Position numbers and translations under genes: made by a program. The notes under the pieces were generated by a model that saw nothing but the letters and a program-made list of their open reading frames with translations, had not been told where the DNA came from and did no database searches. DNA of 64,000 nucleotides from Candidatus Latescibacterota bacterium (GTDB lineage Bacteria; JAAXHH01): NCBI GenBank assembly GCA_022822725.1, contig JAJEAN010000001.1, positions 186,001-250,000 of the forward strand, written 5' to 3'. The number at the start of each line of letters is the position of its first letter. The first letter of the stretch is position 1. Positions 11,179 through 27,833 of this stretch are shown here, piece by piece.

Positions 11179-11252
11179 ATCGGTGCTCAGCGCCTGGATT
11201 CCGCCCCCCTTCCGAGGCGGTGAGAACCCTGACCGCCCGCAAACCAGGATCC

Positions 11253-12701
11253 ATGTTCCAAGGCCTTAAAAGACTCACCACCCATTCGGCGATCTACGGT
11301 CTCAGCGACGTACTGGGCAGGTCCATGGCCTACCTGCTGGTACCGGTGTATACCCATGTCATGCCCGTCGAGGAATTCGGCTACTACGGGCTCGTCTATA
11401 CCTTCATCGCGCTGACGAACGTCCTGTTCCTCTACGGCATGGATTCGGCCTTTCTAAGGTACTACGTGCTTGAGAAGGACCGCAGGCGGGAAACGCTGAG
11501 CACCGGCTACCTCACCATGCTTTTCACGTCGACCGGGCTCGCCGTGGTCATCGTCCTGTCCGCCGCCCGGATCGCGCCGCTTATCGCCGTCTCCGCTTCC
11601 CTGACTTCGTACGTCCAGCTGGCCGCCGCGGTCCTGGCGCTGGACGCCCTCAACGCCATTCCCTTCGCACGGCTCCGGGCAGAGGGCAAGGCCGCGACGT
11701 TCGCCTCCCTCAAGCTTATGAAGGTGATGATCGAACTGGGCGGAAACTGTTACCTCGTCGTCGTGCTCGATATGGGGCTGCAGGGCATTCTGATCAGCAA
11801 CATCGCCGGGTCCGGGATCGTCTTCCTCATCCTGGCAGTCATCACCCTGCGGCATATGTCCTTCTCCTGGTCTCGCGGAACGATGGGCCGGCTCCTGAAA
11901 TTCGGCCTGCCCTACGTGCCCGCCGGCGCCTGCATCATCATCATCGAAACCATCGACCGCCTGATGCTGGAACGGATGGCCGGCACCGAGACCCTCGGTA
12001 TCTACCACGCGGCCCGCAAGCTGGGCGTCGGCATGCTCATCTTCGTCACCATGTTCCGGCAGGCCTGGCAGCCCTTCTTCCTGGAAACCTCCAGGGAGGA
12101 GAACCCCAGGCCGCTGTTCGCCCGCGTGCTGACCTACTTCCTGGCCATTGCGGGCGGCGTCTTCCTGGCCCTTTCCTTTCTCATCGACGACCTGGTCCGC
12201 ATATCCATCGGCGGCTATACCCTGATCGAGGCGTCATACTGGGAGGGGATCGCCGTGGTGCCGATCCTGCTCGCGGCTTACGTGCTGTATGGGATCTACG
12301 TCAACCTCACCGTGGGCGTCTACCTGGAGAAGAAGACCGTCCTGCTCCCCTTCATCACGGCCGCGTCGGCCCTGGTCTGCATCCTGACGAACCTCTGGCT
12401 CATCCCGGCGATCGGCATGTACGGCGCGGCCACGGCTTCGGCGGCCGCCTACGCGGTGATGGTGGCCGGGTTGTACCTCGTGGGCCGGAAGTACTATCCC
12501 ATACCCTACGAGTATATCCGACTGCTCAAGGTAGTCTTCGCGTGCGGAGTGCTGTTCGCGGTGCGTGAACTCACCGAAATCGCCTGGGCCGGGGAGATCG
12601 CCCTGGTCGCGGCCTACCCGGTGGCGTTGTGGGCGATGAGATTCTTCAACGCCGGGGAAATGGCGTTCGCGAGACGATTCCTGCGCCTTCGCGGATCGTG
12701 A
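11253..12701 (+). CDS. Polysaccharide-biosynthesis flippase (Wzx/MATE-like)
   Basis: A 482-residue polytopic membrane protein with about 12-14 hydrophobic helices. Its opening pattern (TTHSAIYGLSDVLGRSMAYLLVPVYTHVM) is typical of polysaccharide-biosynthesis membrane proteins of the MOP superfamily. Such proteins flip lipid-linked oligosaccharides across the inner membrane for capsule, O-antigen or exopolysaccharide assembly. FGYYGLVYTFIALTNV and KFGLPYVPA are family-like. No glycosyltransferases flank it, so it is a stand-alone gene here. ATG 11253 is preferred over GTG 11220, since homology starts there. Its last 56 bp overlap the 3' end of the convergent FG-GAP gene. Confidence 0.85.
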   Translation: MFQGLKRLTTHSAIYGLSDVLGRSMAYLLVPVYTHVMPVEEFGYYGLVYTFIALTNVLFLYGMDSAFLRYYVLEKDRRRETLSTGYLTMLFTSTGLAVVIVLSAARIAPLIAVSASLTSYVQLAAAVLALDALNAIPFARLRAEGKAATFASLKLMKVMIELGGNCYLVVVLDMGLQGILISNIAGSGIVFLILAVITLRHMSFSWSRGTMGRLLKFGLPYVPAGACIIIIETIDRLMLERMAGTETLGIYHAARKLGVGMLIFVTMFRQAWQPFFLETSREENPRPLFARVLTYFLAIAGGVFLALSFLIDDLVRISIGGYTLIEASYWEGIAVVPILLAAYVLYGIYVNLTVGVYLEKKTVLLPFITAASALVCILTNLWLIPAIGMYGAATASAAAYAVMVAGLYLVGRKYYPIPYEYIRLLKVVFACGVLFAVRELTEIAWAGEIALVAAYPVALWAMRFFNAGEMAFARRFLRLRGS

Positions 12702-14358
12702 TAAGCTGGCCGCCTTCTACCCCGGTCGCGACGTCTCTCGCGCCGCCGGGCCAGTCCACGATGACCGAGTCCGCTTCGGCGTGGGCACCGAGTCCGAAGT
12801 GGGCCCTGAGGTCATTGGCCGCCAGGTAGCTGTAGGCGCTTCGGATTTCCCGCGACTGTCGCACAGCGCCTGTGACCACGGCGACACGCGCGCCGATGCC
12901 GTTTCGATTGCTCCGGACGCCCTCGGTGGCGACGAGCAGACTGTGCGCATCCTCCCCCCCGGTCCCGTCGTTCCGCAGCAGCAGCGGGACATCGTTCACC
13001 GTGGTGACCAGCACGTCGATGTCGCCGTCGTTGTCCACGTCGCCGAATGCCGCGCCCCGGTGCACGCGCTCCACCTGAAACGGCGCGCCGGCGCGGTCGC
13101 TGATATCGGTGAATCGTCCATCGCCTTCATTACGGAACAGCTGATTGGTCTGCGGGTAGGTAATCGTCGGATCGAACAGGGAGATGTTGTCGATCACGTG
13201 GCCGTTCGCCGCGAAGATATCAAGCCACCCGTCGTGGTCGAAATCCTTGAAGCCTGTACCGAAGCCCAGATAAAGGAGCGTGGGATTGCCCACGCCCGCG
13301 CCGAAGGTGGTTTCGGTGAAGGTGCCGTTCCCGTTGTTACGGTGCAGCGAGTTGGGTTCCAGGGAGAAATTGGTCACGTAGATATCCGGCGACCCGTTCC
13401 GGTCGTAGTCTCCGATATCCACCCCCATGCCCGCCCGGGCGACGCCGTCTTCGCCGTAGGCCACGCCCGCCAGCAGGGCCATGTCGGTAAACGTGCCGTC
13501 GCCGTTGTTCCGGTACAGGAAATCCGGCGTCAGGTCGTTGGCCACGAATATGTCCGTCCAGCCGTCCCCGTCGTAGTCGCCACCCACGACCCCGAGGCCC
13601 TTGCCTTCCGGATTGGCGATGCCCGCCTCCGCGGATACGTCGGTAAACGTGCCGTCGCCGTTGTTCCGGTACAGCAGGTCGGCGGCGCCCTCGTAGATGT
13701 CGGGTCCGCAGTAGGACTGGATGCCGTCCCGAACGCATCGCCTGTTGGTCTCGAACGCGAATTCGACGTATGCACACACGTAGAGATCCAGGTGCCCGTC
13801 CCTGTCGTAATCCAGGAACGCCGCGCTGGTCGAGAACGTGGGATTCCGCGGTACCGTCAATCTCGTCCGAGCGGTCACGTCCGTGAATGTCCCGTCGCCT
13901 TCGTTCCGGTAGAGGACGTTGGCCCCGTAGTTCGTGACGAACAGATCGTCGTCGCCGTCGTTGTCATAGTCCGCGACGGCCATGCCCATCCCGTAGCCCC
14001 CCGCGTTGCCCACGCCGGCCTGACCGGTCACGTCCGTGAAGGACCCGTTCCCGTCGTTGCGATAGAGGGCGCTGGACAGAGGCCGGTCGGGCACGAAACC
14101 CGGGATGGCCGCGCCGTTGAGCAGGTAGACGTCGAGATCGCCATCTCCGTCGTAATCGATAAACCCGCCACCGGACGCCACCGTTTCGAGGAAGTAGTAA
14201 CGGCCCGATTTGCCATTGGTGTGCCGGAACGTGATCCCGGCCGAAGGCGCGATGTCCGTGAATTGCACGACCGCCCGGGAAGCATCGGGAAGATGATCGG
14301 GCTGGCTGCAGGAAGGAATGATAAACAGGAAGGTGAGAAGGACCGGAACCCGGATCAA
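12646..14358 (-). CDS. CRTAC1-type lipoprotein with FG-GAP/VCBS repeats and ASPIC/UnbV domain
   Basis: A 570-residue exported protein, last gene of the eight-gene minus-strand cluster. N-terminal lipoprotein signal with lipobox-like FIIPSCSQ (Cys about residue 17). Then at least six VCBS/FG-GAP repeats, each with a calcium-loop core such as DYDGDGDLDVYLLNG, DYDNDGDDDLFVTNYG and DYDGDGWTDIFVANDL, and the recurring LYRNNGDGTFTDV, forming a beta-propeller. The C-terminal ASPIC/UnbV domain (about 470-555) contains GIGARVAVVTG, LRAHFGLGAH and VDWPGGAR. The family is surface-located; its biochemical role is unknown. It shares an ATGA overlap with the upstream gene, indicating translational coupling, and a 56-bp 3' overlap with the flippase gene. 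Confidence 0.9.
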   Translation of the reverse strand: MIRVPVLLTFLFIIPSCSQPDHLPDASRAVVQFTDIAPSAGITFRHTNGKSGRYYFLETVASGGGFIDYDGDGDLDVYLLNGAAIPGFVPDRPLSSALYRNDGNGSFTDVTGQAGVGNAGGYGMGMAVADYDNDGDDDLFVTNYGANVLYRNEGDGTFTDVTARTRLTVPRNPTFSTSAAFLDYDRDGHLDLYVCAYVEFAFETNRRCVRDGIQSYCGPDIYEGAADLLYRNNGDGTFTDVSAEAGIANPEGKGLGVVGGDYDGDGWTDIFVANDLTPDFLYRNNGDGTFTDMALLAGVAYGEDGVARAGMGVDIGDYDRNGSPDIYVTNFSLEPNSLHRNNGNGTFTETTFGAGVGNPTLLYLGFGTGFKDFDHDGWLDIFAANGHVIDNISLFDPTITYPQTNQLFRNEGDGRFTDISDRAGAPFQVERVHRGAAFGDVDNDGDIDVLVTTVNDVPLLLRNDGTGGEDAHSLLVATEGVRSNRNGIGARVAVVTGAVRQSREIRSAYSYLAANDLRAHFGLGAHAEADSVIVDWPGGARDVATGVEGGQLITIREGAGIVSRTPFPRR

Positions 14359-14918
14359 CGGCGTTTTCTCATGAGTACGACGGTCATGGCCACGAGGACA
14401 AGCACACCCAGGCTGACCCCGGCGACGAGAAAGCCCGACACCGGTTCCCTGATCAGCGGAACCTCGAAGGTGGCGCGCGTTTTCTGTTCACCGCGCACCG
14501 AAAACTCCACGTCGACGTGATGTACGCCCGGGACGCGCCGGGTCCACATGATCGGACGGTCAATGGCCTCGGCTTCGGCGCTGTGGTAATGCGTGTATAC
14601 GTTGCCCTGTGGATCCGTGATCCCGATCCGGAGGACGCCCGCATAGTAATCACCCGTCGACCGGCGCTGGACGTAGGTCACGAACCGTGCGTCGCCGCCG
14701 AGATCGTAGGCTTTGAAGGTCAGTGTATATCCGGCCTCCATCTCCCGCGCTTCGTCGACGACGGCCTGCTCGGAGAACGTGTATCCGACGAAAGTGCCGC
14801 CCGCCACGTGACTGTCACTGGGCACCCCGTTGCAGGCCAGGGCCGTGACCGCCAACGTGACCACGGCCGTTACAGCCGCCGTGAACACCGGCGTGATGCC
14901 TGTCATGATTCCGCGCAC
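14355..14918 (-). CDS. Unrecognised exported protein, lipoprotein-like signal and C-terminal membrane helix
   Basis: A 187-residue protein I cannot name. Visible: a hydrophobic leader rich in Ala/Val/Thr ending VTALACNG, which resembles a lipobox (Cys about residue 29); a predicted beta-rich extracytoplasmic domain of about 125 residues (MEAGYTLTFKAYDL to RATFEVPL) that could be Ig-like, distantly recalling FixH/YtkA-type domains; and a C-terminal helix (VSGFLVAGVSLGVLVLVAMT) ending in MRKRR, which would anchor it in the inner membrane. GTG 14918 shares one base with the upstream stop TAG; ATG 14906 is an alternative start. The leader itself is a degenerate repeat. It is tightly coupled to both neighbours in the envelope cluster. 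Confidence 0.72.
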   Translation of the reverse strand: MRGIMTGITPVFTAAVTAVVTLAVTALACNGVPSDSHVAGGTFVGYTFSEQAVVDEAREMEAGYTLTFKAYDLGGDARFVTYVQRRSTGDYYAGVLRIGITDPQGNVYTHYHSAEAEAIDRPIMWTRRVPGVHHVDVEFSVRGEQKTRATFEVPLIREPVSGFLVAGVSLGVLVLVAMTVVLMRKRR

Positions 14919-16045
14919 TAGTTGTACTCCTCAGGAAAAACGAAGTTGTACCGGACGACTCTGTCCTCCTCCAGTTCCGCGAAATAGATCCGGCCCTGCC
15001 GGTCCACGTGCATGGGAACGCCGACCACATCGAACTGAGCCGACATTTCCCACTTTCCATCCGGCCTGAAGAAATCGAACCATCGATCCAGTTTCGTCAT
15101 CTGCAGCCTGGGCATGCCCATCGCGTTGAGACCGACCTGTTCGAATTCCTGGTACTCTATGGAATTGACGATCCGTCCGTCGGGCAAAACGGCCAGTCCG
15201 CCGGACACGCCCACGGGCGGCGGCCGCCGCGTGGTCGTCCAGCGGGCCATGGGTTTCATATCGAAGGAAGTGGTCCGGTTGAACTCCAGCTCCAGTCCGT
15301 TTACCCGGTCGAATTTACGGATCCAGTAGGGGTGCCTCGCGGAAACGACCACGTAACCGTCCTCCGTCGTTTCCATGGCCGCATCGGAATACGCGATGAA
15401 TTCCTTGAGCGTTCCCGATCGCCGCAGGGTCTCCATCGGATTGTAGAACTTGGTGATCGGATCTCCTTCCGGACTGTATTTATAGATGAGATCGTGCTGC
15501 GTAATCACGAAAACGAGCACGTTCCCCTCGGCATCGATGCGTATGCGTCGAGGCTTCGTGACCTGCGTGGACCAGATGTCCGCGAAGGTGAGGTCCGGAT
15601 TGAATACCGTGACCCGGTCGAGTGCGTTGTCCAGCACGAACAGTCTTCCTTCGTCATCCAGCGCCATGTCTACCGGAGACTTGAACTGCAGCGGTCCCAC
15701 ACCCAACGACCCCACGGCCGTCTGAAAGGAACCGGTCTCGTCGAACCTGGAAATCCGGTTCTGGTACGAATCGGCTATATAGATGTTGCCGCTTCGATCC
15801 GTGGTGATCCCGAACACCGAAGCAAAGGACCGGCCCTCGGCTCCTTCGATCACCAGGTCTTCTTCGAGCATGACGTCAGCCGTTTGATCGGGGGCGTGCC
15901 GGATCGGGGCGTCGCTGATGACCCTTGAAGCGCCCGCGATCACTTCCGTTCTCCCACGCCACATCCCGTCATCGTCCGCTTCCGTGCAACCCATCAGAAG
16001 TGCCGCGGCCAGGAGCGGCAACGCTCCGGACTTGAACCGCTTCAT
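14918..16045 (-). CDS. Six-bladed beta-propeller (NHL-type) lipoprotein
   Basis: A 375-residue exported protein. The signal MKRFKSGALPLLAAALLMGC ends in a lipobox (Cys20). The remainder shows NHL/6-bladed-propeller repeats: FGITTDRSGNIYIADSYQNR, SPVDMALDDEGRLFVLDNAL, RIRIDAEGNVLVFV, GGLAVLPDGRIVNS and VPMHVDRQGRIYFAEL, each a blade with a G-N/R-I/L-Y/F core. Such propellers act as binding scaffolds or, rarely, as enzymes; the ligand is unknown. Start ATG 16045 has a clear AAGGAG box. The gene sits 25 bp after the TPR gene and ends by sharing one base with the next start. Confidence 0.85.
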   Translation of the reverse strand: MKRFKSGALPLLAAALLMGCTEADDDGMWRGRTEVIAGASRVISDAPIRHAPDQTADVMLEEDLVIEGAEGRSFASVFGITTDRSGNIYIADSYQNRISRFDETGSFQTAVGSLGVGPLQFKSPVDMALDDEGRLFVLDNALDRVTVFNPDLTFADIWSTQVTKPRRIRIDAEGNVLVFVITQHDLIYKYSPEGDPITKFYNPMETLRRSGTLKEFIAYSDAAMETTEDGYVVVSARHPYWIRKFDRVNGLELEFNRTTSFDMKPMARWTTTRRPPPVGVSGGLAVLPDGRIVNSIEYQEFEQVGLNAMGMPRLQMTKLDRWFDFFRPDGKWEMSAQFDVVGVPMHVDRQGRIYFAELEEDRVVRYNFVFPEEYN

Positions 16046-16070
16046 CCGTTTCTCCTTCCGGTACGTCCAT

Positions 16071-17693
16071 TCATGAACCATTCCTTTCCTGCCTGATCTG
16101 CTCCCATCGCTGCTGCAATATGTCGTTCTCCGGCTCGATGCGGACGGCATTCCCCATCGCCTCATCGGCCCCGCCGTAGTCCCCTCTCGCGTTCCGCACG
16201 ATGGCCAGCGTTTCGTAGGCGACGGCGGTAGGCGCGATCTCAACCGCCCGGCCGGCCAGTTCCAGGGCACGGTCCAGGTCCACCCCGTGCCGGGCGATGA
16301 GCCAGGCCAGGTTCGTATAGGCCTCGACATAATTCGAATCGAGCTGGATCGCCTGCTGGTATGCGTTTCGAGCCTCTTCGTACATACCCAGCTCCACGTA
16401 AGCTACGCCCAGGTTGTTGTAGGCGTGAACGAAACGGGGCGACAGCTCCGTCGCTATCCTGAATTCCCGCACGGCGTCCTCGTACCGGCCCAGGCGGGTC
16501 AGGGCCGTTGCCATGTTGTAATGCACCTCCGCCACCCGCGGGTTCAGCCGTACCAGGGATTCCGCCTGCGACAACGCTTCCCTGAACCCGTTGAGCTGCT
16601 GAAACGTATCGAGAAAACGCCCGGCATCTTCCGGTCTACCCATGGCGTTCAGGGTGTTTCCGATGGCAAGATAGGGTTCGGGGTACGCCCGGTTGAGTTC
16701 GACCGCCCGTGAGAACGCTTCCAGGGCTTCTTCATGCCGTTGGTCGGCCGCATAGGCCGTGCCCGCATGGTATTGCAGGGTAGGCGACTCGGGATCCATC
16801 TCCAGGGCATCCCGGTACAGCGTGATCGCCCGTTCAGTCCGGCCCGCCCGCAGCGAGGCCTGGGCGAGGCCCGCGATGGCCTCCACCGAAACCTCATCGA
16901 TGCGCAGCGCGTTCTCGTAAGACCGTACCGCGTCGTCGACCCGGCCTTCGCTCAACGCGATGACACCGAGTTGGCAGTAGGCCTGGGCCATGCCGGTTTC
17001 CACCTGCAAGACCGCGCGAAAGGCATCCCGCGCTTCCTGGAATTTACGCTGATCCAGGAGCACACGGCCCAACGCGTACCGGGCGTCGGCAAAGTCCGGA
17101 TCGATGGACAGGGCATTGGTATAGGAGATCTCGGCCTCGCCAAGGGCGCCCAGTTTCTCTTCCGTGGTCCCCCGGCCGTAGTGAAACAGGCTGTTGTCGG
17201 GGTCGCGATCCGTCGCCTCGACGAACGACTTGATCGATTCGACAAGCCGGCCCGTATACTGGTAGGCCTGGCCCAGATTGTAGTACGGTTCGACGCGATC
17301 GGGATCCATTTCCACGACGCGGCGGAAGGCATCGATCGCGTCGTCGTACCGTTCCTGCTGGGCGTAGACCAGACCCAGGTTGAAACGGGCATCGACGTCT
17401 CCGGGACGCAGTTCGGTGACGACCAGGAAGGCTGCTTCCGCCGTATCCAGCTTATCCAGTGCGACGGCGGCCAGGCCCAGGTTGAAGTAGTTGGAAGGTT
17501 CGTTCCTGTTCTCCTCGATCTGACGTCGGAAATGCATCACGTCTTCGAGCAGAAGGGACTCGTCCTCAGGCGACAGTTGCCTGGGTGCATCATCCTGACG
17601 GACGTTGGATATTTGCGTGATGTATGGACCGGTGTCCATGAGCAGGAGCAGGGGCAGGAAAAGCAAAAATACTACGAGGAGGATATTGCGCAT
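16071..17693 (-). CDS. Membrane-anchored tetratricopeptide (TPR) protein
   Basis: A 540-residue protein with one N-terminal hydrophobic segment (MRNILLVVFLLFLPLLLLMD), an uncleaved anchor or signal, then about 12 TPR units of 34 residues from about residue 65 to the end. Canonical units include NYFNLGLAAVALDKLDTAEA, ARFNLGLVYAQQERYDDAID and AYNNLGVAYVELGMYEEARN. TPR arrays are protein-interaction scaffolds; location is probably periplasmic, facing the cytochrome and propeller lipoproteins encoded next to it. It starts 10 bp after the cytochrome gene with only a weak ribosome site, suggesting coupling. TPR proteins beside ASPIC/UnbV proteins are common, but the partner relation here is inferred. 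Confidence 0.88.
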   Translation of the reverse strand: MRNILLVVFLLFLPLLLLMDTGPYITQISNVRQDDAPRQLSPEDESLLLEDVMHFRRQIEENRNEPSNYFNLGLAAVALDKLDTAEAAFLVVTELRPGDVDARFNLGLVYAQQERYDDAIDAFRRVVEMDPDRVEPYYNLGQAYQYTGRLVESIKSFVEATDRDPDNSLFHYGRGTTEEKLGALGEAEISYTNALSIDPDFADARYALGRVLLDQRKFQEARDAFRAVLQVETGMAQAYCQLGVIALSEGRVDDAVRSYENALRIDEVSVEAIAGLAQASLRAGRTERAITLYRDALEMDPESPTLQYHAGTAYAADQRHEEALEAFSRAVELNRAYPEPYLAIGNTLNAMGRPEDAGRFLDTFQQLNGFREALSQAESLVRLNPRVAEVHYNMATALTRLGRYEDAVREFRIATELSPRFVHAYNNLGVAYVELGMYEEARNAYQQAIQLDSNYVEAYTNLAWLIARHGVDLDRALELAGRAVEIAPTAVAYETLAIVRNARGDYGGADEAMGNAVRIEPENDILQQRWEQIRQERNGS

Positions 17694-17703
17694 GCCGTAC
17701 CCG

Positions 17704-19632
17704 TCAATCGAAGTAGGATCTGATACGATCGCGGAGGCTCAGCCCTTTCGAAGGCGTGGAAACTTCCAAGTGTCCGACCGGCCGTACCGAGGTGACGTCC
17801 GAAGCCACGGTCATGTCTTTCTGCGTCCACTTCTTGAGATCCGCCAACGGTTTGAACGCTCTCCTGTATATCAGATCGGTATGGATATCCACGCGGTCGA
17901 CACCCGTCGGCATTTCAAAGATATACACAGAACGGTCTGCCTCGCGCGCCTTGATTCGCGTGTCCTCGACTATGCGGGTTGCTTGCCAATCCATAACGTG
18001 GGTATTACCCTCGTCATCACCGAAAACCAGGGCAAATCCCTTGCCCGGGTAGCCCGCGTAGTTTCCTTCGGCCAGATCGCCTTCACCGCCGTAGGACGGT
18101 ACGCGCTGGTCCCCCACGTAACGCAGGGTATCGCCATTGGACAATACGGGCGTGACGAGCAACAGCATGTTCCTGATGGTGATCCCCGATGGGATATGGT
18201 GGCCGGTATTGACGTTCCGCACGTCCACCGTCACCGCCAGCTGCCCGCTTGAAACAACGGCATCTATGGCCAGGGTGGCGGCGTTAGGCAGAAGCTCCTC
18301 CGTGGCCCCGGGGAACCCGTGCGTTTTAACGGTGGTCGGGTCCCGGTATCCGATGGGTGTCCAGAACTTCTCCGCATCGCCGTTTACGAACGAACCAAAG
18401 GTGAATCCGTCGGCATCGGGTTTCATGTGGCAGTCCTGGCACTCGATGCCCATGGCCGAATAGGGGCTGTCCTTCCACTCCTGGTACGTATCCATGAACG
18501 GAAGGCCGTGCTTGTTCTTGTGCTGGTGGCAGGCGGAGCAGTAGTCGCTGCTCGTGTAGATCGGATTGTAACTGGCCACCATGGGCGAAGTGTTGGATGA
18601 TCCCGGCAACGGGGTGAAGTTGATGACGTCGTCATAGGGACCGTAGACGAATATCGGCGGGAACTTCCCCTTGATGAGGCGGGCCTCCCGTTCCTCTTCC
18701 ATGGCCACCAGGTTCAGGGTTACCGATCCGTTCACGCCCGCGTGATCATTAACCTCCACATTCTGTATCTTGTGGCAGAAGTCGCAGTGAATCCCCGCAC
18801 CGTCGACCGAACCGGCCATTCTTTCGTACTCCATGCGTTCAAGCGTCTTGTAGTCCTGGACGGTCGGATAGGCCTGCGAACGATTGTACACGACTTTCAG
18901 GTCGGTGTGGCCCGGTGCGCGTACGGCGGCCGAGGGGGCGTGGCAGTCGGCGCATTCTCCGGCTTCATCGGGGAAATCCAGCCGGAAGCCGGGCCCCACG
19001 TTCTCATTGCCGTCCGCATCCGTACCGTCGTAGAGATTCAAAGTCCACGGATTGGTTACGCCTTTCGCGTGCTGGGAAGCACTCCATTGATCGTAGAGGT
19101 CTCTGTGGCAGAGGTAACAGGTCGGTTCGAAATGGCAGAGGTTGCATCCCTCTTCAAAGCCCGTGTGGGATTGCGTGCGCAGACGCTCCAGTTCTTCCGG
19201 GTCCTCGCGCAGGTCGACCAGTGATTTGTGAGGAGTGATGAAATCGTAGGATTCGTCTTTTTCTTCGGGTACTTTTTGCAATACGATCGTCGTATATGAT
19301 GTTTTGGGATCTACCATGACCCCGCCATTCAACCAGCCTTCCTTGCCGGCCGTTACCGCGTAATGCTGCACAGGATCTTCAATGATGTTCAGGGTGAACC
19401 TGCCCTCGGAATCGGTAAGCACGTAATCCGGTTTTCCGTGTTCCCGTACGCGGACATCGGGTATGGGGTCTTTCCCATCGATAACGACACCGCTCAACCG
19501 AACGGCCTGGGCATGCGCATCCAAACCGGTCAGCGCCATGGCGGATGCGATACATCCGATCACGAAAACCTTTATCACCTGCCCGTATCCGCTCAGCCCT
19601 TTCAACATCATCGAATGCCCCAATTCTTTCAT
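17704..19632 (-). CDS. Secreted hexaheme c-type cytochrome with N-terminal carboxypeptidase-regulatory-like domain
   Basis: A 642-residue exported protein. After a signal (hydrophobic to about residue 41, AHAQ) comes a CarboxypepD-reg-like beta domain (about 45-120, VRLSGVVIDGKDPIPDVRV). Six CxxCH haem c motifs follow at residues 163, 172, 227, 283, 365 and 398 (CNLCH, CYLCH, CADCH, CDFCH, CSACH, CQDCH), resembling the cytochrome c554 / multihaem superfamily. A haem-free C-terminal beta-rich part (about 440-640) contains NTGHHIPSG. It is probably a periplasmic or surface electron carrier or oxidoreductase. ATG 19632 lies right against a 12-bp hairpin; ATG 19611 (Met-Met-Leu-Lys) is an alternative start. 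It is gene 4 of the cluster. Confidence 0.9.
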   Translation of the reverse strand: MKELGHSMMLKGLSGYGQVIKVFVIGCIASAMALTGLDAHAQAVRLSGVVIDGKDPIPDVRVREHGKPDYVLTDSEGRFTLNIIEDPVQHYAVTAGKEGWLNGGVMVDPKTSYTTIVLQKVPEEKDESYDFITPHKSLVDLREDPEELERLRTQSHTGFEEGCNLCHFEPTCYLCHRDLYDQWSASQHAKGVTNPWTLNLYDGTDADGNENVGPGFRLDFPDEAGECADCHAPSAAVRAPGHTDLKVVYNRSQAYPTVQDYKTLERMEYERMAGSVDGAGIHCDFCHKIQNVEVNDHAGVNGSVTLNLVAMEEEREARLIKGKFPPIFVYGPYDDVINFTPLPGSSNTSPMVASYNPIYTSSDYCSACHQHKNKHGLPFMDTYQEWKDSPYSAMGIECQDCHMKPDADGFTFGSFVNGDAEKFWTPIGYRDPTTVKTHGFPGATEELLPNAATLAIDAVVSSGQLAVTVDVRNVNTGHHIPSGITIRNMLLLVTPVLSNGDTLRYVGDQRVPSYGGEGDLAEGNYAGYPGKGFALVFGDDEGNTHVMDWQATRIVEDTRIKAREADRSVYIFEMPTGVDRVDIHTDLIYRRAFKPLADLKKWTQKDMTVASDVTSVRPVGHLEVSTPSKGLSLRDRIRSYFD

Positions 19633-19639
19633 TACATAA

Positions 19640-19673
19640 GAGAATCCCTCATCGAACGGACTGAGGGATTCTC
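19640..19673 (-). other. 12-bp perfect inverted repeat at the PorV / cytochrome junction
   Basis: GAGAATCCCTCA (19640-19651) and its exact complement TGAGGGATTCTC (19662-19673) enclose a 10-nt loop. On the minus-strand transcript it forms a stable hairpin 57 bp after the porV-like stop and only 7 nt before ATG 19632. No U-run follows, so it is more likely a processing, stability or attenuation element than an intrinsic terminator. Confidence 0.82.
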
Positions 19674-19729
19674 CAGTGCTTCAGCTAACGTTATTTCTTT
19701 CCATCCATCGGTACTTCCTGGCTTGTTGT

Positions 19730-20713
19730 TTAGAAGCCCACGCCGACGGACACGCGATGCAGGTCATCCAGCAGATTGTACTGCGTATACGCGTAATCAA
19801 CATTGAGACTTAATTCACCCTGGCTGAACCGGAGACCGGCGCCAGCAGAAACGCCTTCATCCTGGCCGCCGCTGTATCCGGCTTTCCAGCCAACCCGGCC
19901 CGCGATGTATTCGTTCACCCACCACTCGATACCGAGATTGAGCACGGAATCGAACTCGCGAAGCTTCCAGAGTTCGGCGCTGGTCATCAAGCTTCCCACC
20001 GGCAGTTCGTACGGTTCAATGGCAAAACCGATACGGAACGTAGTGGGCAACTGGTCACGAGCGCTCGACTCATCGATGAACTGCATATCCGGACCGAAGT
20101 TCTGGAACGAGGCGCCAATACGGAAGTTACGGAAATCCGTCGTATAGATGGTGCCCACGTCGACCGCCACCGCCGTGCTGGTCCGGTCATCGTCACCGGC
20201 GCCGCTCGTGCCTTCCGACACGTACTTCAGCGAACCGCCGACCGCGAACGAATCGGTCAGACGACGTGCATAACTCGGACCGATGGCCAGGTCCGTCACG
20301 TTAAAGTTCTGGCCCTGGTTGGCGAATTGACCCGTCGGATCTCCAGAGGTGGTATAGGGTATGTCGCCCGAAAGCAGCGAATGCACACTCACACCCACAG
20401 CGCCGTTGTCGCCGAGATTCCAGACGAGGCCTGCGCTGAACACCGTCATTTCCGCAAAATACGGAGCGTAGGAAACGCCGACTGCACCTCTGCCCTCTAC
20501 GAACACCATGGTAGCCTGGTTCGTCAGGGCCGAGAAGGCGCCCAGATCCGTATAGGAAGTGGCGGAAGATGCAACACCTGCGACACGTGCGCTGGAATCG
20601 AGCGTCAGAAACTTCGTCGCGGCGGTTCCACCTTTGGAAACCTGAGCATGTGCCGGTGCTGACAGTGCCAGCAGGAGTCCGGTGACCACGCCCCAGCGAA
20701 ACAATACTTTCAT
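19730..20713 (-). CDS. PorV/PorQ-family outer-membrane barrel protein
   Basis: A 327-residue outer-membrane protein: signal MKVLFRWGVVTGLLLALSAPAHAQ, then the PorV/PorQ-like opening KGGTAATKFLTLDSSARVAGVASSATSYTDL with an N-terminal fold resembling FadL-type beta barrels. Alternating amphipathic strands end in an aromatic residue (VSVGVGF), as expected for insertion by the BAM complex. In Bacteroidota PorV shuttles type IX secretion cargo to the surface attachment machinery. Its position immediately after a gene for a protein with a type IX-like sorting domain supports that role, though core secretion genes are not in this window. ATG 20713 has a strong GGAGG box; the 12 codons upstream are excluded. 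Confidence 0.88.
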   Translation of the reverse strand: MKVLFRWGVVTGLLLALSAPAHAQVSKGGTAATKFLTLDSSARVAGVASSATSYTDLGAFSALTNQATMVFVEGRGAVGVSYAPYFAEMTVFSAGLVWNLGDNGAVGVSVHSLLSGDIPYTTSGDPTGQFANQGQNFNVTDLAIGPSYARRLTDSFAVGGSLKYVSEGTSGAGDDDRTSTAVAVDVGTIYTTDFRNFRIGASFQNFGPDMQFIDESSARDQLPTTFRIGFAIEPYELPVGSLMTSAELWKLREFDSVLNLGIEWWVNEYIAGRVGWKAGYSGGQDEGVSAGAGLRFSQGELSLNVDYAYTQYNLLDDLHRVSVGVGF

Positions 20714-20742
20714 TAGAAAACCTCCCTGAATCGGACCGCCCC

Positions 20743-20771
20743 GCGCCATGGCCCGTCATGGCCCATGGCGC
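20743..20771 (-). other. 9-bp perfect inverted repeat between the surface-protein and PorV-like genes
   Basis: GCGCCATGG (20743-20751) and CCATGGCGC (20763-20771) can pair around an 11-nt loop in the 74-bp gap. No U-run follows. It is one of three strong hairpins at successive junctions of this cluster. Confidence 0.75.
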
Positions 20772-20787
20772 TGGACGTAACCGCAGT

Positions 20788-23700
20788 TTACCGCCGGACG
20801 TAGAGTTTCAGTGTCTTCGCGTAGTCCACGCCACCGATCTCGGCTTCTACCACGATGATATACAGACCGCTGGCAACCGGCACGTTGGAATCGTTCTTCA
20901 GATCCCAATCCGTCACACCGCCGATCGTCGTGGTCTGGTCACCCGGCACGGAGAACTGCTTCACCTGCAGGCCGGCCGCATCGAAGATCGTGATGCGGGA
21001 CGGTACCGGAGCGTTGAAGAACTTGACGGTTTGCGACTTCGTTGCCAGATCCCACTGGGCCTGGAAGACGAAGGGGTTCGGCGCGACTGTGATCAGATTC
21101 TCGAATTCGGCCACACCAGCCGCAACCTCGTTACGGACCACGGTAGTCGGGATAACGTCCTGTCCCGGTACCTGCGGTCCCACCGTCAAACCACGGTACG
21201 GATACTGGCCGTGCCAGCGTCCGTCCGTACCGTTCGCGTTCATCGTGTAGAAACTCTCGAGCCCGTTGATCGTACGGGTAATAACGCGCTGCGAGGAGCC
21301 TTGATCTGCCACGTAGTTGTCGAAATCGTGCTGTTGCGCGCTTTCGTTATCCACCGAGGCTACGTAGTACCAGTAGCTGAAACCGATCAGCACGGAACGA
21401 TCTTCGAACATATAACCGCTCTTGCCGACCAGGCGGGGATCAGTGGCAATTCCGCCGACGCTGGTAATCTGCGCATCGCCGGATCCGATGGCATCCGGAT
21501 AGCGATCCGAGAAGCTGGTGGCGATGGCTGTCGTAGCGCCCAGAGCATTGTTCGCTTCGACGATCTGAGCCGAACTGGGCTTGGTTTCGACGAAATCATC
21601 CTCGAAACCAGGCAGCCTGTCGCCAGCCGGATACGGGTTCGGATAGGAAACGGACTCAGGCGGATTCAGGCTGTTGGTCTGATTTCCGCCGCCGCCGCCG
21701 AATTCAGCGATCTGTACGTACGGACCGGAGAAGTTCGGCGCCGCGAAGCGCTTCACTAGGTCGTCGGCCACGAAGTCGTACACCCGGCCGATGTTGTAAT
21801 CGGCGCCGAGTGTCAGGCCTTCGTGGATGAACCGGGCGTAGGGATGGCCCTGCTTCACCGCGGCACTCGTCGGATCGGTTACGTCCGTGACCGGTGCGGC
21901 GCCTTCGCTCAGACCGAGGTTCGGCGGGATCACCGTACTGTTGTAACCGACTTCATGGGCTACCGTAGCGGTCGGGAACTGATCGATGAAACCGGAAGCG
22001 CGGTATACGCGGTACTTCGCGAAATCCACGGTTCCCCGGCCCGGATCAATAGCCGTTTCCGCATTGTTGGCCCACGCCAGCGCGATCGTACCGTTGGCGG
22101 TCGGGAAGACCGACAGGGTAGGAGGCGGAGGCGGGTGGAACAGCGCGCCGCTGGCTGCGCCGCGACCGAAGTTGATCGTCTGCGACATTACAGCGCCGTC
22201 GGCGTCCCGCATGACGGAACCATCCGCGTTGTACATGGGGATGGTACGGTCATTGGAACCGTCCCAGTAGTACGTGTTGTTGGCCATGTTGTACTTCCGC
22301 TGCATCCAGACGTCCTGCGCGCGGAGGTAAACGTCGTAAGCGCCATCCTTGCCAGCGCCGATGAGGTCAACATGCCAGATGGTCAGGTCTTCGCCGGGCG
22401 CCTTGGTGTAGGGGCCCCAACCCAGGGCGTTCCGAATGCAACCGGCGCCCGAGGTCTCTTCCTTCGTGTCGCTTCCGTTGTACGGATCGGGGACGATGCC
22501 CTTGAACACGCCGTCAAGATCGAAGAGCGTAACGCTGTCGTACTGACCAGGCTGCAGACCAAGGGCAGCCACGCCGGGATTGCCGGACTGGCCCAGGTTG
22601 CGCGGGTCGCCCCACATCAAGCCCATGCCCGCGGCCGATCCACCAGGCTGCGTCTTGGCGGTCCAGGTGCTGATATCGGTCTCTCTGCCGAGAGGAGAAC
22701 CGCTGGTGAAGAGATCCGGATGCGGCGCACTGCTTCCGCCCGGAACGTTGACCTTCTTGCCCTCGAGGTACTTGGTAAGCGAACCCTCGTACCAGCCGAA
22801 CACGCCTCTCAAGTCGGCAATCCACCATTCGTGGGTATTGAAGAGGCCGACGGACGGCGCATCGTAGATATCCAGCGCCGCGACGTTGTTCGTGTCACCA
22901 AGGGGATCATCGTCGCCGGAACCTTCAAGAATCATCAGGGACGCTTCGCCTACGTGCAACGGATTGAAGTTACCGTTGGTCGTATTCCACACGTAGGAAT
23001 CGATTCCCGGATGTCCCGGATTGTCCTCGTCGAACATGGTGACCAGGCCCGAATAGAACCGGTCGTCGTACGGAGCCTGGTTGAAACGGCCCGAATTGAT
23101 CAACCCTTCCGGTACGGCGAGCGGCATCACACGGCTGAACATGGCGGGCGGCTGCTTGTCGTCGCCACCGGTACCGCCGCCGATCGCCCCACCCGTAAGC
23201 AGCGGGTTGTTCGTCCACGGAATATCGAAGTCGTAATTGAAGATGATCAGGAAGTTCCTGACCGTAACGCCTTCTTCTTCCAGGGTGCCATCCGTATTCA
23301 CGTCCACGTCGCCATGCACGTTCAACACATGACGCAGCAGGATGAAGTCATTCGTATGGCCGTAGCCGTAGCTGAAGCTGTACGATTGACGCAGGATACG
23401 GATGCCGCTGTTCGTGTTGAAGGTAGCTTCCGTTATGAAGGGCTCACGGTATCCACCGGGGCCCACGGTGCCGCCACCGAAACCGGGACTGGTCGAACCA
23501 CCCTGATCGGACCAGAAGCCCGCAGGCGGATTCTCACGCTTGTGAGGCGGAGCCCGGTATACGTTGTTGGTACCGACAAAAGCGCCTTCAGCCCGGCTTG
23601 CAGGCATACCGGCCACGGCATTGGGCAGATAGGCCGTAATGCCGAAGGCAGACGCCCACAGCGGCGCATCCAGCCCGCCCGCCGGGAAGGTGTACGAAGG

Positions 23701-23982
23701 AAAACCCATCGTAGGACTCATGGAACGGCCCGACCCACGCCAACCCCAACCGGTGTAGGTATCGGTCAGTTCCGAATTCATGACGGCCATATAGGTCTGG
23801 CCGCCAATATAGGCATCCTGTCTTTCATCCACGCCGAGCTCGTGAGGTATCGGAACCAACTGAGCCGTCGCGGAATTCGCCGGGGCGTCCGGCAACGCCG
23901 TGAGATATGAAGCTGTCCCAAGGATTGCCGCCGAAGAAAGCACCAACGCTCCGGCTGTTACGTATCGACGCCATTTCTTCAA
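20788..23982 (-). CDS. Large secreted protein with type IX-like C-terminal sorting domain
   Basis: A 1064-residue exported protein. A signal-like leader (KKWRRYVTAGALVLSSAAIL to about residue 41, ending SATAQ) precedes a long central region of unrecognised, Gly/Asn/Pro-rich beta character. The C-terminal hundred residues match FlgD-Ig / T9SS type A sorting domains: VAPNPFVFQAQW, RITIFDAAGLQVKQF, WDLKNDSNVPVASGLYIIVV and final KTLKLYVRR. The start is taken as TTG 23982, because an AAGGAGG box sits 6 bp upstream and the signal begins there; the frame stays open further upstream without a ribosome site. It is gene 2 of the cluster, probably displayed on the cell surface with help of the PorV-like product. 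Its ligand or activity is unknown. Confidence 0.85.
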   Translation of the reverse strand: MKKWRRYVTAGALVLSSAAILGTASYLTALPDAPANSATAQLVPIPHELGVDERQDAYIGGQTYMAVMNSELTDTYTGWGWRGSGRSMSPTMGFPSYTFPAGGLDAPLWASAFGITAYLPNAVAGMPASRAEGAFVGTNNVYRAPPHKRENPPAGFWSDQGGSTSPGFGGGTVGPGGYREPFITEATFNTNSGIRILRQSYSFSYGYGHTNDFILLRHVLNVHGDVDVNTDGTLEEEGVTVRNFLIIFNYDFDIPWTNNPLLTGGAIGGGTGGDDKQPPAMFSRVMPLAVPEGLINSGRFNQAPYDDRFYSGLVTMFDEDNPGHPGIDSYVWNTTNGNFNPLHVGEASLMILEGSGDDDPLGDTNNVAALDIYDAPSVGLFNTHEWWIADLRGVFGWYEGSLTKYLEGKKVNVPGGSSAPHPDLFTSGSPLGRETDISTWTAKTQPGGSAAGMGLMWGDPRNLGQSGNPGVAALGLQPGQYDSVTLFDLDGVFKGIVPDPYNGSDTKEETSGAGCIRNALGWGPYTKAPGEDLTIWHVDLIGAGKDGAYDVYLRAQDVWMQRKYNMANNTYYWDGSNDRTIPMYNADGSVMRDADGAVMSQTINFGRGAASGALFHPPPPPTLSVFPTANGTIALAWANNAETAIDPGRGTVDFAKYRVYRASGFIDQFPTATVAHEVGYNSTVIPPNLGLSEGAAPVTDVTDPTSAAVKQGHPYARFIHEGLTLGADYNIGRVYDFVADDLVKRFAAPNFSGPYVQIAEFGGGGGNQTNSLNPPESVSYPNPYPAGDRLPGFEDDFVETKPSSAQIVEANNALGATTAIATSFSDRYPDAIGSGDAQITSVGGIATDPRLVGKSGYMFEDRSVLIGFSYWYYVASVDNESAQQHDFDNYVADQGSSQRVITRTINGLESFYTMNANGTDGRWHGQYPYRGLTVGPQVPGQDVIPTTVVRNEVAAGVAEFENLITVAPNPFVFQAQWDLATKSQTVKFFNAPVPSRITIFDAAGLQVKQFSVPGDQTTTIGGVTDWDLKNDSNVPVASGLYIIVVEAEIGGVDYAKTLKLYVRR

Positions 23983-24021
23983 AATGAACCTCCTTATGCC
24001 GGCAACGTTCCGAGAACGCGG

Positions 24022-24070
24022 CCAACGTTGCGGGAAGACGCGCGGTTGATGCGCAACTTCCCGCGTTGGA
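24022..24070 (-). other. Large imperfect inverted repeat after the TonB receptor gene
   Basis: CCAAC and GCGGGAAG on the left (24022-24037, separated by a 3-nt bulge) pair with CTTCCCGC and GTTGG on the right (24058-24070). CGC/GCG can pair inside. It lies in the 89-bp gap between the receptor stop and the TTG start of the surface-protein gene; no U-run follows. Confidence 0.75.
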
Positions 24071-24071
24071 T

Positions 24072-27000
24072 TTACCATGCTAAGTTGAGACCTACCCAGA
24101 TATCGCGTGGTCCGTTGGCCTGCGTACCGATTCCACCTACCGGACCGCCTACGAGACCCACTGGATCTCCACGGCGTTGCCACCGGTCGCCGGTCGCGTT
24201 GGACGAATCGCCGGTGATGGAATAGATGTTCGTCCGGTCGAAGAGGTTATTGACCTGGGTGAACACACCGAGCCGTACGTTGCCGAGATCGAAGTTCTTC
24301 TGGGCGTAAAGATCGGTGGTCCAGGTCCACGGCGAACGCTGTGCGGCGGCGAGCAGTCCGAGCGGATCGATCGCCTGGTCGCTGGACGTGCGATACTGGT
24401 TGCCGCTCTGCGCCTTGGTCAGGAAAGAAGCGCTGATGCCGTAGGGCAGATCGAGCAGGAGGTTCGTCACAATACGATGACGACGATCGAAACTGGTGAA
24501 CTCGCGGATGTAGGTATCCGGTGTCGGGACCCCATCTACGAAGTCGGAGAATACAAGCACCGTTTCGCCGCCACGTTCGCGGACGGTTTGCGGCGTGGTC
24601 AGATCCGACGTGAAGGCCAGGGTGTAGTTGGCCCGTACCGAGAACCGGTTGGCCATCTGGCGCCGCAACGAGATCTCGAGACCGCGCGAATCCTGGGCGA
24701 ACGTCGGAAGGAGGATGGATACCTCGCGTTGCGAACCGCCGATGAAAGCTACGTCCGGCGCGAAAAGCCAGGTAAGCGGCTGGTTGTTCGCATCCCGGAA
24801 ATAACCCGTTACGTCCATGTAGTAACCGGGATAGATCTCGGCCTGCAGACCCATCTCGTAATTCGTGGACTTCTGGAACGGCAGGTCCGGGTTGCCGTGA
24901 TTACGCTCGAACGGCGAGGTCTGGACCAGGCCCATGTACAGGTCCTGCAGCGGCGGGCGCTGGTTGAAGATGCCGTATGAATAGTGCAGCGCGGCGCGGT
25001 CCGTGATCGGATGAGAGATACCCAGGCGCGGCGCCAGACCCGTCTTCATCGACGGCTCTATCGTACGGTATTCCGGATCGTCGTGCTCCGGACCGGGGCC
25101 CGAGCGCGGACGGTACGGGTTGATCGCATTGGCGTTGGCGTCGAAGATATCCAGCCGCAGCCCTGCGTTCACCACGAGACTACCGTACTCGATCCGGTCC
25201 TGCATGTACGCGAAGTACTCGACCGGATACACGTGCGCCTGCCGGCCGGCGAGGGGCAGCGTGCTGGCGGTCGGATCCACATTGAGGTCATTGAAGAGCG
25301 TCACGGCGTTACCCCTGGCGGGGCCTCTCGTGCTCTCTTCATAGTCGTTCATGGTCACGCCGAAACCACCCTTGAACTGATGGTTCGAGTTCACCTGGCT
25401 GGTGATGGCGAAGTTGAGATCCGTCTTGAAAGGCCGTACGCTCGAGTAGTTGCCGAAATCGATCGCGGAATAGGCCTCGTCACCGTACAGGAGATAGGGC
25501 ACCTGCGTTCCGGCGCCTTCCTCGAGTACCGAATAACCTACGGAGTTGATGAACGCGGAAGTAAACGCCGGCAGGGGTTCCTTGCCGTACTTGGGATTGT
25601 AGCGTTCAACGTATTCGCGCAGATGGCTGAAGCGGATCTCGTAGAAGGTACGCGGACTGAGCGTGTGGGTAAACGCCATGTTCACGTGGAACCGGCCGTT
25701 GTAGGCCTGGTTGCGACCTTCCGAATTGTATTTCCAGGCGTAGGGCGTACTCCGCTGACCCTTCCTGCTGAAGAAACCCTGGTCTTCGATGAGTCCGGAC
25801 ATGGACAGCTTCATGGCGGTCTGTGGCCGGTAGGTCAACTTCACGAAGGAGTTCATCAGGCGGGAGTAGTCATTGGGATTGCGTCCCCAACTCTCGCTGA
25901 ACCGGCCTGAAGCGAACCAGTTCAGCTTGCCGCCCAGCGGACCGCCCATGCCGAAGTCGATCTGGACCGGGCGCTTCTCCGTCCGGTTGTTCCGGGCGAA
26001 CTGGTTGTACTTGTCCGGGTTGAACGAACGATCCACCGGCGCATCGCGGTTCACCGCGACACCGCTGTTCGCCTGGGCTTCCGGCAGGCCGTCCGTCAGG
26101 TAGGACCAGAGGATGGCTTCGGGTTCGGGAATGACCCGGTCGTAATCCCAGTAATAGTTGTCACGCTTGTAGATGGCGGACCAGCTGTCCGGCGCGCCGG
26201 TCATATCCAGCACGTCGAACGGGTCCTGCATCCTGAGACCGTCATCGGCACGGGCCGGATCGCTGTTGAAGGCGTTGGTCTTGTCGATCGCGCCCTGGAT
26301 GATATCGCGCAGATCCTGCTCCGACCAGGTACCGGCCCGGTAGGCGTCGACGATATCGAGATCGGGCGGCTTGGTCCAGTTGAGGCCCTTCTGACCGAGC
26401 GTGCGGTACTCGAAGTTGCCGTTGTAACTGGAACCGCCTTCACGGGTCACCACCGTGGTGATGCCTGCCAGCGCGTTTACGTACTCGGCGTTGAACGTAC
26501 CCGTCTTGACCTGAAGTTCCTGGATCATGTAAGGGTTGATCGTAAACGCCTGTCCTCTGTTCAACTGCTGGCCCGTCACCGTGGAACCGTCGATCGTGGT
26601 CTGCTGATCCTGGGGACGGCCGCCGCGAAGGTTGCCGGCGAAGCTGCCCGCGGTGGTCAGAACCACTTCGGCGATATTCACCACCGGCAGCGCCTGGATT
26701 TCTTCGGCCTGCACGACGGTCCGGGTGGAGGTAAGACTCTTCTCTACCAGGTCCCTGGTCGCCACGACCTCCACCGCTTCGGCGGATTCGAGAATCGTGG
26801 ATTCCAGCTCGAAGTTGAGGGTCGTGGTGATATCGGCATCCACCTGCGTACCTATGGCACGCACCGGGACATAACCGATGACGTTCACCACCAGGGTGTA
26901 GGTGCCGGGCGGTACGTTCAGGATGAAGTACTCACCCATGTCGTTCGCCATCGCACCCAGAACAGTGCCCTCGACTGCGACACTGGCGGCCGGCAGGGGT

Positions 27001-27134
27001 TCCCGCGTCGCACCGTCGACCACGACACCGGAAATCTTGCCCAGCGACAACTGCGCCTGTGCTTCCGTCGAGATGCTGAGCACTAACGCGAAAGCGAATG
27101 CGAAGCGCAAAGCTCGTGAAATTATTATAGACAT
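24072..27134 (-). CDS. TonB-dependent outer-membrane receptor with carboxypeptidase-regulatory-like domain
   Basis: A 1020-residue outer-membrane receptor. Signal MSIIISRALRFAFAFALVLS to AQAQ (about residue 28); CarboxypepD-reg-like domain about 33-115 (SGVVVDGATREPLPAASVAV, PPGTYTLVVNVIGY); plug domain about 130-250 (IQALPVVNIAEVVLTTAG, TIDGSTV); then a C-terminal beta barrel ending in aromatic Trp (WVGLNLAW). Such receptors import large substrates using TonB energy; the layout is SusC/OmpA-related without a SusD partner here. A GAGGAGTG box lies 7 bp before the ATG. First gene of the eight-gene minus-strand cluster, preceded by the longest spacer in the window. Substrate unknown. Confidence 0.93.
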   Translation of the reverse strand: MSIIISRALRFAFAFALVLSISTEAQAQLSLGKISGVVVDGATREPLPAASVAVEGTVLGAMANDMGEYFILNVPPGTYTLVVNVIGYVPVRAIGTQVDADITTTLNFELESTILESAEAVEVVATRDLVEKSLTSTRTVVQAEEIQALPVVNIAEVVLTTAGSFAGNLRGGRPQDQQTTIDGSTVTGQQLNRGQAFTINPYMIQELQVKTGTFNAEYVNALAGITTVVTREGGSSYNGNFEYRTLGQKGLNWTKPPDLDIVDAYRAGTWSEQDLRDIIQGAIDKTNAFNSDPARADDGLRMQDPFDVLDMTGAPDSWSAIYKRDNYYWDYDRVIPEPEAILWSYLTDGLPEAQANSGVAVNRDAPVDRSFNPDKYNQFARNNRTEKRPVQIDFGMGGPLGGKLNWFASGRFSESWGRNPNDYSRLMNSFVKLTYRPQTAMKLSMSGLIEDQGFFSRKGQRSTPYAWKYNSEGRNQAYNGRFHVNMAFTHTLSPRTFYEIRFSHLREYVERYNPKYGKEPLPAFTSAFINSVGYSVLEEGAGTQVPYLLYGDEAYSAIDFGNYSSVRPFKTDLNFAITSQVNSNHQFKGGFGVTMNDYEESTRGPARGNAVTLFNDLNVDPTASTLPLAGRQAHVYPVEYFAYMQDRIEYGSLVVNAGLRLDIFDANANAINPYRPRSGPGPEHDDPEYRTIEPSMKTGLAPRLGISHPITDRAALHYSYGIFNQRPPLQDLYMGLVQTSPFERNHGNPDLPFQKSTNYEMGLQAEIYPGYYMDVTGYFRDANNQPLTWLFAPDVAFIGGSQREVSILLPTFAQDSRGLEISLRRQMANRFSVRANYTLAFTSDLTTPQTVRERGGETVLVFSDFVDGVPTPDTYIREFTSFDRRHRIVTNLLLDLPYGISASFLTKAQSGNQYRTSSDQAIDPLGLLAAAQRSPWTWTTDLYAQKNFDLGNVRLGVFTQVNNLFDRTNIYSITGDSSNATGDRWQRRGDPVGLVGGPVGGIGTQANGPRDIWVGLNLAW

Positions 27135-27286
27135 CTAGTTCACTCCTCGTTTAACAGAGCCCTTCTGATTATTGTCAGCTTGCCCCGGCCTGCTGACGGT
27201 ATCGTAATGTTGCAGAACCGACATCAAATTCCAGCTGCACTTCTTTCGACGCTCACCTCCCTCCAGCGATGGTAATGGGGCAATCG

Positions 27287-27315
27287 TATATAAATAAGTA
27301 ATCTGAATACCTTAA
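27287..27315 (-). promoter_or_regulatory. Candidate promoter for the eight-gene envelope cluster
   Basis: On the minus strand TTAAGG (plus 27310-27315), 17 bp, then TATATA (plus 27287-27292), about 155 bp upstream of the TonB receptor ATG in the AT-rich spacer. The -35 is weak, so this is tentative. Confidence 0.38.
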
Positions 27316-27660
27316 AATGATAGAAACGACAAACATGACGGCCACGTGCAAGGGCATGAACACGCGACGAAACATCGATTTTGAATGTCAGGAATCCGAG
27401 TCATTATCAAATGCAAACAACGTGCCAGTTTTCGAACCGGTTTCGGACGTACACGTCTCCCTGCCCGAAACCCCATGAGACTCTAAGTGAAACAAGTCCA
27501 TGCGCCGTATTTTGACACCTGTATGGGGCCGTTCCGGACGACATGTAGCACGAAATAAATTTCATCCTGTGATCAGGGCTGAAACGAATTGCACAACACG
27601 GCCCGAATCCATTACGCGTTTTTACTCATCACAAACACCGCGAACGCCGCCAATTCTTTC

Positions 27661-27689
27661 TTGACATTGCACACGGCCCCGCATAAGGT
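27661..27689 (+). promoter_or_regulatory. Candidate promoter for thrC-dacB
   Basis: Perfect TTGACA at 27661-27666, a 17-bp spacer, then TAAGGT at 27684-27689, about 145 bp before ATG 27834. The -10 box matches at only 3 of 6 positions. Confidence 0.4.
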
Positions 27690-27833
27690 GTTGCGCTGGT
27701 AATGGTTCGGCTGTGTTTAGCAGTGTGATAAACAGCGATCAACAAGTTATATCCGGTCCCCGTCATAGTCAACATTTTATTTCATTCTTACTCAAAAAAA
27801 CCGGTATTGGCGGGAATAAAAAGCGGGTCCTTC

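Follow-up and report, generated by a model that had tools for sequence, protein, structure and literature searches.

The eight minus-strand genes between positions 12646 and 27134 of the window (the whole stretch of 64,000 nucleotides analysed here) are a real, phylum-conserved cluster rather than an ad hoc grouping. Most of the parts can be recognised, and the combination of the eight genes appears to be undescribed. Special here are the joining of two modules, a putative surface capture triad and a redox set built around a hexahaem cytochrome, as well as the sixth haem of that cytochrome and the fixed presence of an NHL lipoprotein and a 187-residue protein. The genes, in transcript order from 5' to 3', and the features within them are as follows.

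24072-27134, minus strand: TonB-dependent receptor, 1020 residues, with a SusC-like N-terminal extension (carboxypeptidase-regulatory-like), plug and barrel
20788-23982, minus strand: surface protein, 1064 residues, TTG start, with a putative T9SS-type C-terminal sorting tail
20791-21105, minus strand: the putative sorting tail, residues 960-1064 (APNPF...SRITIFDAAG...SGLYIIVVEAE...KLYVRR), TIGR04183 17.1 bits
19730-20713, minus strand: outer-membrane barrel of the PorV/PorQ family, 327 residues, NF033709 182.8 bits (cut-off 90)
17704-19632, minus strand: hexahaem c-type cytochrome of the PHC (c552/ExtKL-like) family, 642 residues, with a Sec signal peptide
19282-19503, minus strand: N-terminal domain of the cytochrome, residues 44-117, SusC N-terminal-extension fold
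19132-19146, minus strand: sixth, N-terminal haem motif CNLCH, residues 163-167, from the clade alignment
16071-17693, minus strand: TPR protein, 540 residues, with an N-terminal signal or anchor, TPR_1 224 bits and clade alignment
14918-16045, minus strand: NHL six-bladed-propeller lipoprotein, about 375 residues, NHL 34 bits, DUF5128 28 bits
14355-14918, minus strand: protein of 187 residues with a lipobox-like cysteine, a C-terminal transmembrane-like segment and a basic tail
12646-14358, minus strand: FG-GAP and ASPIC/UnbV (CRTAC1-like) lipoprotein, 570 residues, FG-GAP_3 (PF13517) 196 bits, UnbV_ASPIC (PF07593) 60 bits

The preliminary description had placed eight genes on a single strand with gaps under 100 bp or overlaps, and this is borne out by the coordinates, the order and the family scores. 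Counted from the TonB end the gaps measure 89, 74, 97, 10, 25, -1 and -4 bp, and the widest, 97 bp, separates the PorV and cytochrome genes. The starts of the sorted-protein and NHL genes are best set at 23982 (TTG) and 16045. Shuffled sequences contain more promoter-like sites than the cluster region, where the sole one precedes the TPR gene. Between the TonB gene and a divergent threonine-synthase-like gene lie 672 bp (27135-27806), likely a regulatory region; a search of this gap for a sigma-70-like site found none. At the opposite end a flippase gene (11220-12701, plus strand) overlaps the ASPIC gene tail to tail by 56 bp (12646-12701), and an overlap of about 50 bp is repeated within the genus and missing in the more distant L041. 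The spacing is operon-like and, with the synteny described below, suggests that the eight genes may be expressed as one transcript.

The neighbourhood search called for in the preliminary description was run with tblastn, using the eight proteins against relatives, and found conservation: all eight genes stand in identical order wherever a relative's contig spans the cluster, with the short spacing likewise kept and no gene inserted. This synteny, at protein identities of 44-98%, rules out chance adjacency of the eight genes. The phylum search comprised 16 genomes, all in one order, and the PorV-like gene is present in 16/16. The cluster was seen in two genera of the family, the window's own and another, and partial contigs carry it in a third genus and in two further families; the eight-gene order spans three families of the clade that submitters named 'Latescibacterota'. 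The relatives are metagenome assemblies, the nearest named ones with the submitter labels Candidatus Latescibacterota, Gemmatimonadetes or Zixiibacteriota, and the window's own genome measures 3.8 Mb. The phylum includes sponge-associated bacteria, and we know of no cultured member. Sponge Latescibacterota and PAUC34f are treated in published papers, and the window may come from PAUC34f. Housekeeping genes (threonine synthase-like, flippase, rlmB) flank the cluster and are largely syntenic in relatives. At locus L035 (10915-14102) the sorted-protein gene is broken by an apparent frameshift, possibly an assembly error.

The first module begins with the TonB receptor, which scores 58 bits with PF13715, 55 bits with CarboxypepD_reg and 30.5 bits with the plug domain PF07715, the last two over their curated cut-offs. 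Against the SusC model TIGR04056 it reaches 48.5 bits, confined to the N-terminal 146 residues, where the cut-off is 368. The 1064-residue protein has no domain over cut-off in Pfam or NCBIfam, and an AlphaFold prediction with 14 clade sequences gave a pLDDT of 31, from which no fold is drawn. In profile searches its full-length form is confined to the clade or phylum, and its tail and a middle motif are common to proteins of about 1,000 residues from many other families (SORT-like proteins below). The type IX-like sorting tail proposed earlier is kept here as putative. In the window protein alone it scores 17.1 bits against a TIGR04183 cut-off of 23 and has no Pfam match, but in hhalign it matches the tails of other triad proteins at 99.5%, and some of those pass TIGR04183. 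The SprA translocon is moreover encoded in the same genome (TIGR04189 652 bits, G000:C4:23924-28981) and is over cut-off in 13/15 genomes of the phylum. The profile of the PorU sortase (peptidase C25, PF01364) had no match in the genome, nor in any control genome.

The PorV-like barrel, 64-97% identical across the clade, also exceeds the cut-off of the Pfam PorV model (62 bits) and matches PorV of the T9SS translocon (6h3i, E 1.9e-16). Its score against the T9SS core PorV equivalog NF033710 is 93.4 bits, under the cut-off of 250. Sequence searches of solved structures returned no match for the SORT-like family or the TonB receptor. A second PorV/PorQ-like gene of the genome (G000:C9:2495193-2496104; L207:7173-8111) has no triad partners among the neighbouring ORFs listed.

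The same triad recurs in other lineages. TonB, SORT-like and PorV genes are adjacent on the same strand in 17/20 loci from other families, with the TonB receptor upstream and the PorV-family gene downstream of the SORT-like gene, and with gaps of -121 to +113 bp as measured on stop-to-stop frames. The TonB and PorV profiles are independent of the profile that picked the 20 loci. At the remaining three no partner was detected, and two of these sit at contig ends. The middle proteins of the other triads are mutually homologous over much of their length; the 1064-residue protein of the window aligns to their profile in three collinear stretches, of which the tail alone gives a strong match. Several full-length SORT-like members occur in a Calditrichota genome (named via L057), where a complete triad stands at one of the three loci inspected, and L163 holds a tandem pair of TonB-SORT-PorV triads. 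The first genes after other triads include those for a subtilase, GH31, PIG-L, cytochrome P460 and further sorted proteins, and because of these followers the triad can be read as an uptake or degradation unit comparable to SusCD. The outer-surface capture envisaged in the preliminary description is thereby supported, by analogy with triads that recur beside polymer-degrading genes, for the TonB receptor, the sorted protein and the PorV-like barrel.

This comparison with SusCD is an analogy and not a claim of membership. In both, a TonB receptor with an N-terminal extension is encoded adjacent to a surface binding protein, and the other triads have degradative enzymes downstream. However, no SusD family is found among the eight proteins, the triad surface protein is of the T9SS-sorted type with a PorV-like barrel of its own, and the SusC score of the window receptor lies far below cut-off. 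A canonical SusCD system is rejected on the absence of SusD and on that score (48.5 against 368 bits). A second known scheme is that of T9SS cargo and its shuttle: PorV is described in that role, and BamG, a related barrel, binds a surface protein via its loops (PMC12578637). The cluster shares with the cargo-PorV system a PorV-family barrel and SprA in the genome, and its putative sorting tail, below cut-off, would fit this system too, but unlike the core PorV its barrel gene appears dedicated, beside the cargo gene, and scores 93 bits against the 250-bit cut-off of the core PorV model. The arrangement also resembles BamG/BamH of the Bacteroidota BAM complex, in which a FadL/PorV-like barrel holds a surface protein beside an outer-membrane protein (PMC12578637), except that BamA is absent from the cluster and the partner is a TonB receptor.

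The second module is centred on the cytochrome. Six CxxCH motifs, in keeping with the six haems of the preliminary description, were confirmed in the window protein, and six are present in 9/9 clade members compared. The closest solved relative, by sequence and by fold, is the pentahaem c552 of Thermochromatium tepidum (5ze8, fold E 6.8e-21), the fold comparison being made on a predicted model of pLDDT 82. The family it belongs to also includes Geobacter ExtKL; against NCBIfam ExtKL the protein scores 66.6 bits, where the curated cut-off is 250. All 44 of the 44 aligned members retain the five core haem sites, with haem 2 appearing as CxxCK in ten outside members (L068, L072, L073, L077, L080, L082, L085, L090, L091, L105); CxxCK is the catalytic-haem motif of NrfA-type reductases. 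The motif at C163-H167 is found in 9/9 clade members and in 0/35 outside relatives of this 44-member alignment. Within the pentahaem c552/ExtKL family the cytochrome is a hexahaem variant, and its sixth haem is specific to the clade. Near-invariant distal histidines are few for the five core haems in the same alignment, and these counts were set aside, since sequence alone does not reveal which residues ligate a haem.

With the PHC family (ExtKL, T. tepidum c552) the cytochrome shares the five core haem sites, a C-terminal beta-rich domain and the 5ze8 fold. It differs in the sixth haem, which lies in an N-terminal insert, and in an N-terminal domain like the SusC extension; its gene neighbours differ from the extHIJKLMNOPQS set of ExtKL. 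In Foldseek, residues 44-117 match 9hfj, the N-terminal extension (NTE) of SusCdex, with a TM-score of 0.83 by target and an rmsd of 2.0, and they score 20 bits with PF13620, under cut-off. On the basis of this modelled fold, the domain may let the cytochrome dock near the TonB system. Outside the clade, PHC cytochromes adjoin BNR/sortilin propellers in 17/68 loci, including ten of the 13 nearest, counts that stand without a random-locus control. Such large propeller proteins accompany PHC cytochromes of Chloroflexi, Bacteroidales, Armatimonadetes, Acidobacteriota and others (L057-L091), and in two Bacteroidales they bear T9SS tails. We know of no description of this pairing.

Downstream of the cytochrome and TPR genes, the NHL lipoprotein keeps its lipobox cysteine (LMGC) across the clade. 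The 187-residue protein shows an invariant C29 and an FVGY motif in the clade alignment and has no match in Pfam, NCBIfam or the PDB; both proteins are present in every cluster copy. The UnbV_ASPIC score of 60 bits compares with a cut-off of 23.4, FG-GAP_3 and NHL are likewise over their curated cut-offs, and the FG-GAP/ASPIC protein matches cartilage acidic protein 1 (9etn, E 9.3e-28). Its relatives were followed at 19 loci outside the phylum, where adjacency counts again have no random-locus control. A multihaem protein is encoded directly beside ASPIC in six (L188, L190, L191, L192, L198, L201), a TPR protein in five (L185, L187, L193, L196, L197), and haem proteins lie about 1.2 kb from the ASPIC gene in L200; cytochrome-TPR fusions occur in L190 and L201. 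At L043 (G015:C129, 6486-14295), a second locus within the order, a four-haem protein, a hexahaem cytochrome, ASPIC and TPR follow one another with the triad absent, and a Fer4_5 protein is encoded downstream of these redox genes. Because the ASPIC loci outside the phylum and L043 repeat its parts, the cytochrome/TPR/ASPIC combination can be considered a recurring set. FG-GAP CRTAC1 genes have been described between hydrazine-synthase-like genes (PMC12758564), and L191 (6240-12039) has HZS_alpha-like, ASPIC and C554/lactonase/MauG proteins in a row, like those published clusters. The window cluster shares with such loci the FG-GAP/ASPIC gene next to haem proteins, to which L191 adds the HZS_alpha-like gene, but it is without an HZS-like subunit and its cytochrome belongs to the PHC family.

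In view of the above, a mechanism can be considered that we put forward tentatively, as quite possible: T9SS-assisted, Sus-like capture and TonB import would be linked to a hexahaem cytochrome of the periplasm, which is kept at the outer membrane and exchanges electrons with substrate chemistry and with the respiratory chain. The operon would thus join a surface capture and uptake triad to a redox set. The T9SS would export the 1064-residue protein, and the dedicated PorV-like barrel would then carry it or hold it beside the TonB receptor, where the large protein could bind an external substrate that the receptor then imports in the fashion of SusCD. The soluble c552/ExtKL-family cytochrome would work in the periplasm with the TPR protein as a scaffold. 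The lipid-anchored NHL and FG-GAP/ASPIC propellers and the small anchored protein would tether it to the outer membrane and supply it with the substrate or with its redox partner. A captured organic polymer or chelate could then be oxidised or reduced at the boundary of outer membrane and periplasm, with the cytochrome exchanging electrons with the respiratory chain. Uptake of such a polymer or chelate, with its oxidation or reduction, is in our view the most likely overall job of the cluster; we infer the formation of the complex, the locations of the proteins, the substrate and the direction of electrons.

Three other explanations were weighed. The cluster could consist of two independent operons, an uptake triad and an unrelated redox and propeller set, that lie side by side by descent. 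Each module is found separately elsewhere, L043 has the redox part alone, and the largest gap (97 bp) falls between PorV and cytochrome. Against this, the order is unbroken and without insertion across three families of the phylum, the gaps stay short, and promoter-like sites are scarcer than in shuffles, with one only, before the TPR gene. We regard two neighbouring operons as somewhat unlikely.

A second explanation is extracellular electron transfer, in which the cytochrome would send respiratory electrons outward through or along a surface complex. The ExtKL affiliation is in its favour, as is the published proposal, made through fold comparison, that c552 is related to the archaeal cytochrome nanowires (AvECN) (PMC11976967). 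So is a locus elsewhere in the genome (G000:C4:574001-575976; L206:4002-5977) that encodes an octahaem cytochrome (437 residues, 8 CxxCH) followed by a NapC/NrfH-type protein and is a second multihaem pathway, outside the window. However, the cluster is without a quinol dehydrogenase and a porin-cytochrome pair, the cytochrome bears an ordinary Sec signal and lacks a sorting tail, and the genome encodes a haem-copper oxidase (COX1 490 bits). A search of the genome for the MtrB/PioB porin (PF11854) gave no match, by which an outward conduit like MtrCAB is rejected. Outward transfer is therefore improbable. The oxidase and the NapC-type/octahaem pair could connect the periplasm to the quinone pool.

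The least probable of the three, and doubtful, is that the triad imports a metal chelate, a haem or a cofactor, which the cytochrome then reduces in the periplasm: these are common ligands of TonB receptors, and the window receptor has a weak 24-bit match to haem/transferrin receptors and a receptor of another triad 98 bits to TonB-hemin, but both scores are far below cut-off and lie on barrel regions common to many TonB receptors, and the neighbours of other triads suggest polymers and not metals.

For the coupled capture and redox mechanism favoured here, the functional tie of the cytochrome module to the triad rests on synteny in one lineage, because the two do not occur together outside the clade; among the loci examined there, none has the triad beside a PHC cytochrome. 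The cluster itself encodes no substrate-specific enzyme, which also speaks against this mechanism. The single machine of the preliminary description, with electrons or fragments moving inward, is a supposition: no MtrB-type conduit was found in the genome, and neither a substrate enzyme nor a quinol dehydrogenase lies among the eight genes. The preliminary description knew of no described system with this set. Literature searches in open-licence texts found no published account of the triad or of the eight genes, which agrees with that statement, although each half is found by itself at other loci and the set is therefore a combination of recurring modules.

With this cytochrome, a pentahaem family is seen to have acquired a sixth haem along with a new neighbour in the genome. 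The triad spans many families, and its central family of about 1,000 residues has no Pfam or NCBIfam model except for the tail; an uptake unit that is common in outer membranes may therefore have gone unrecognised. Such a unit would extend the Sus principle to T9SS cargo, and PorV-like barrels would gain a role as dedicated partners. A wider proposal, which we consider unlikely as a whole, is that the triad is a third outer-membrane uptake unit that replaces SusCD in T9SS-bearing phyla other than the classical Bacteroidota, and that it is here hard-wired to a nanowire-related hexahaem cytochrome, making one complex for capture and redox chemistry.
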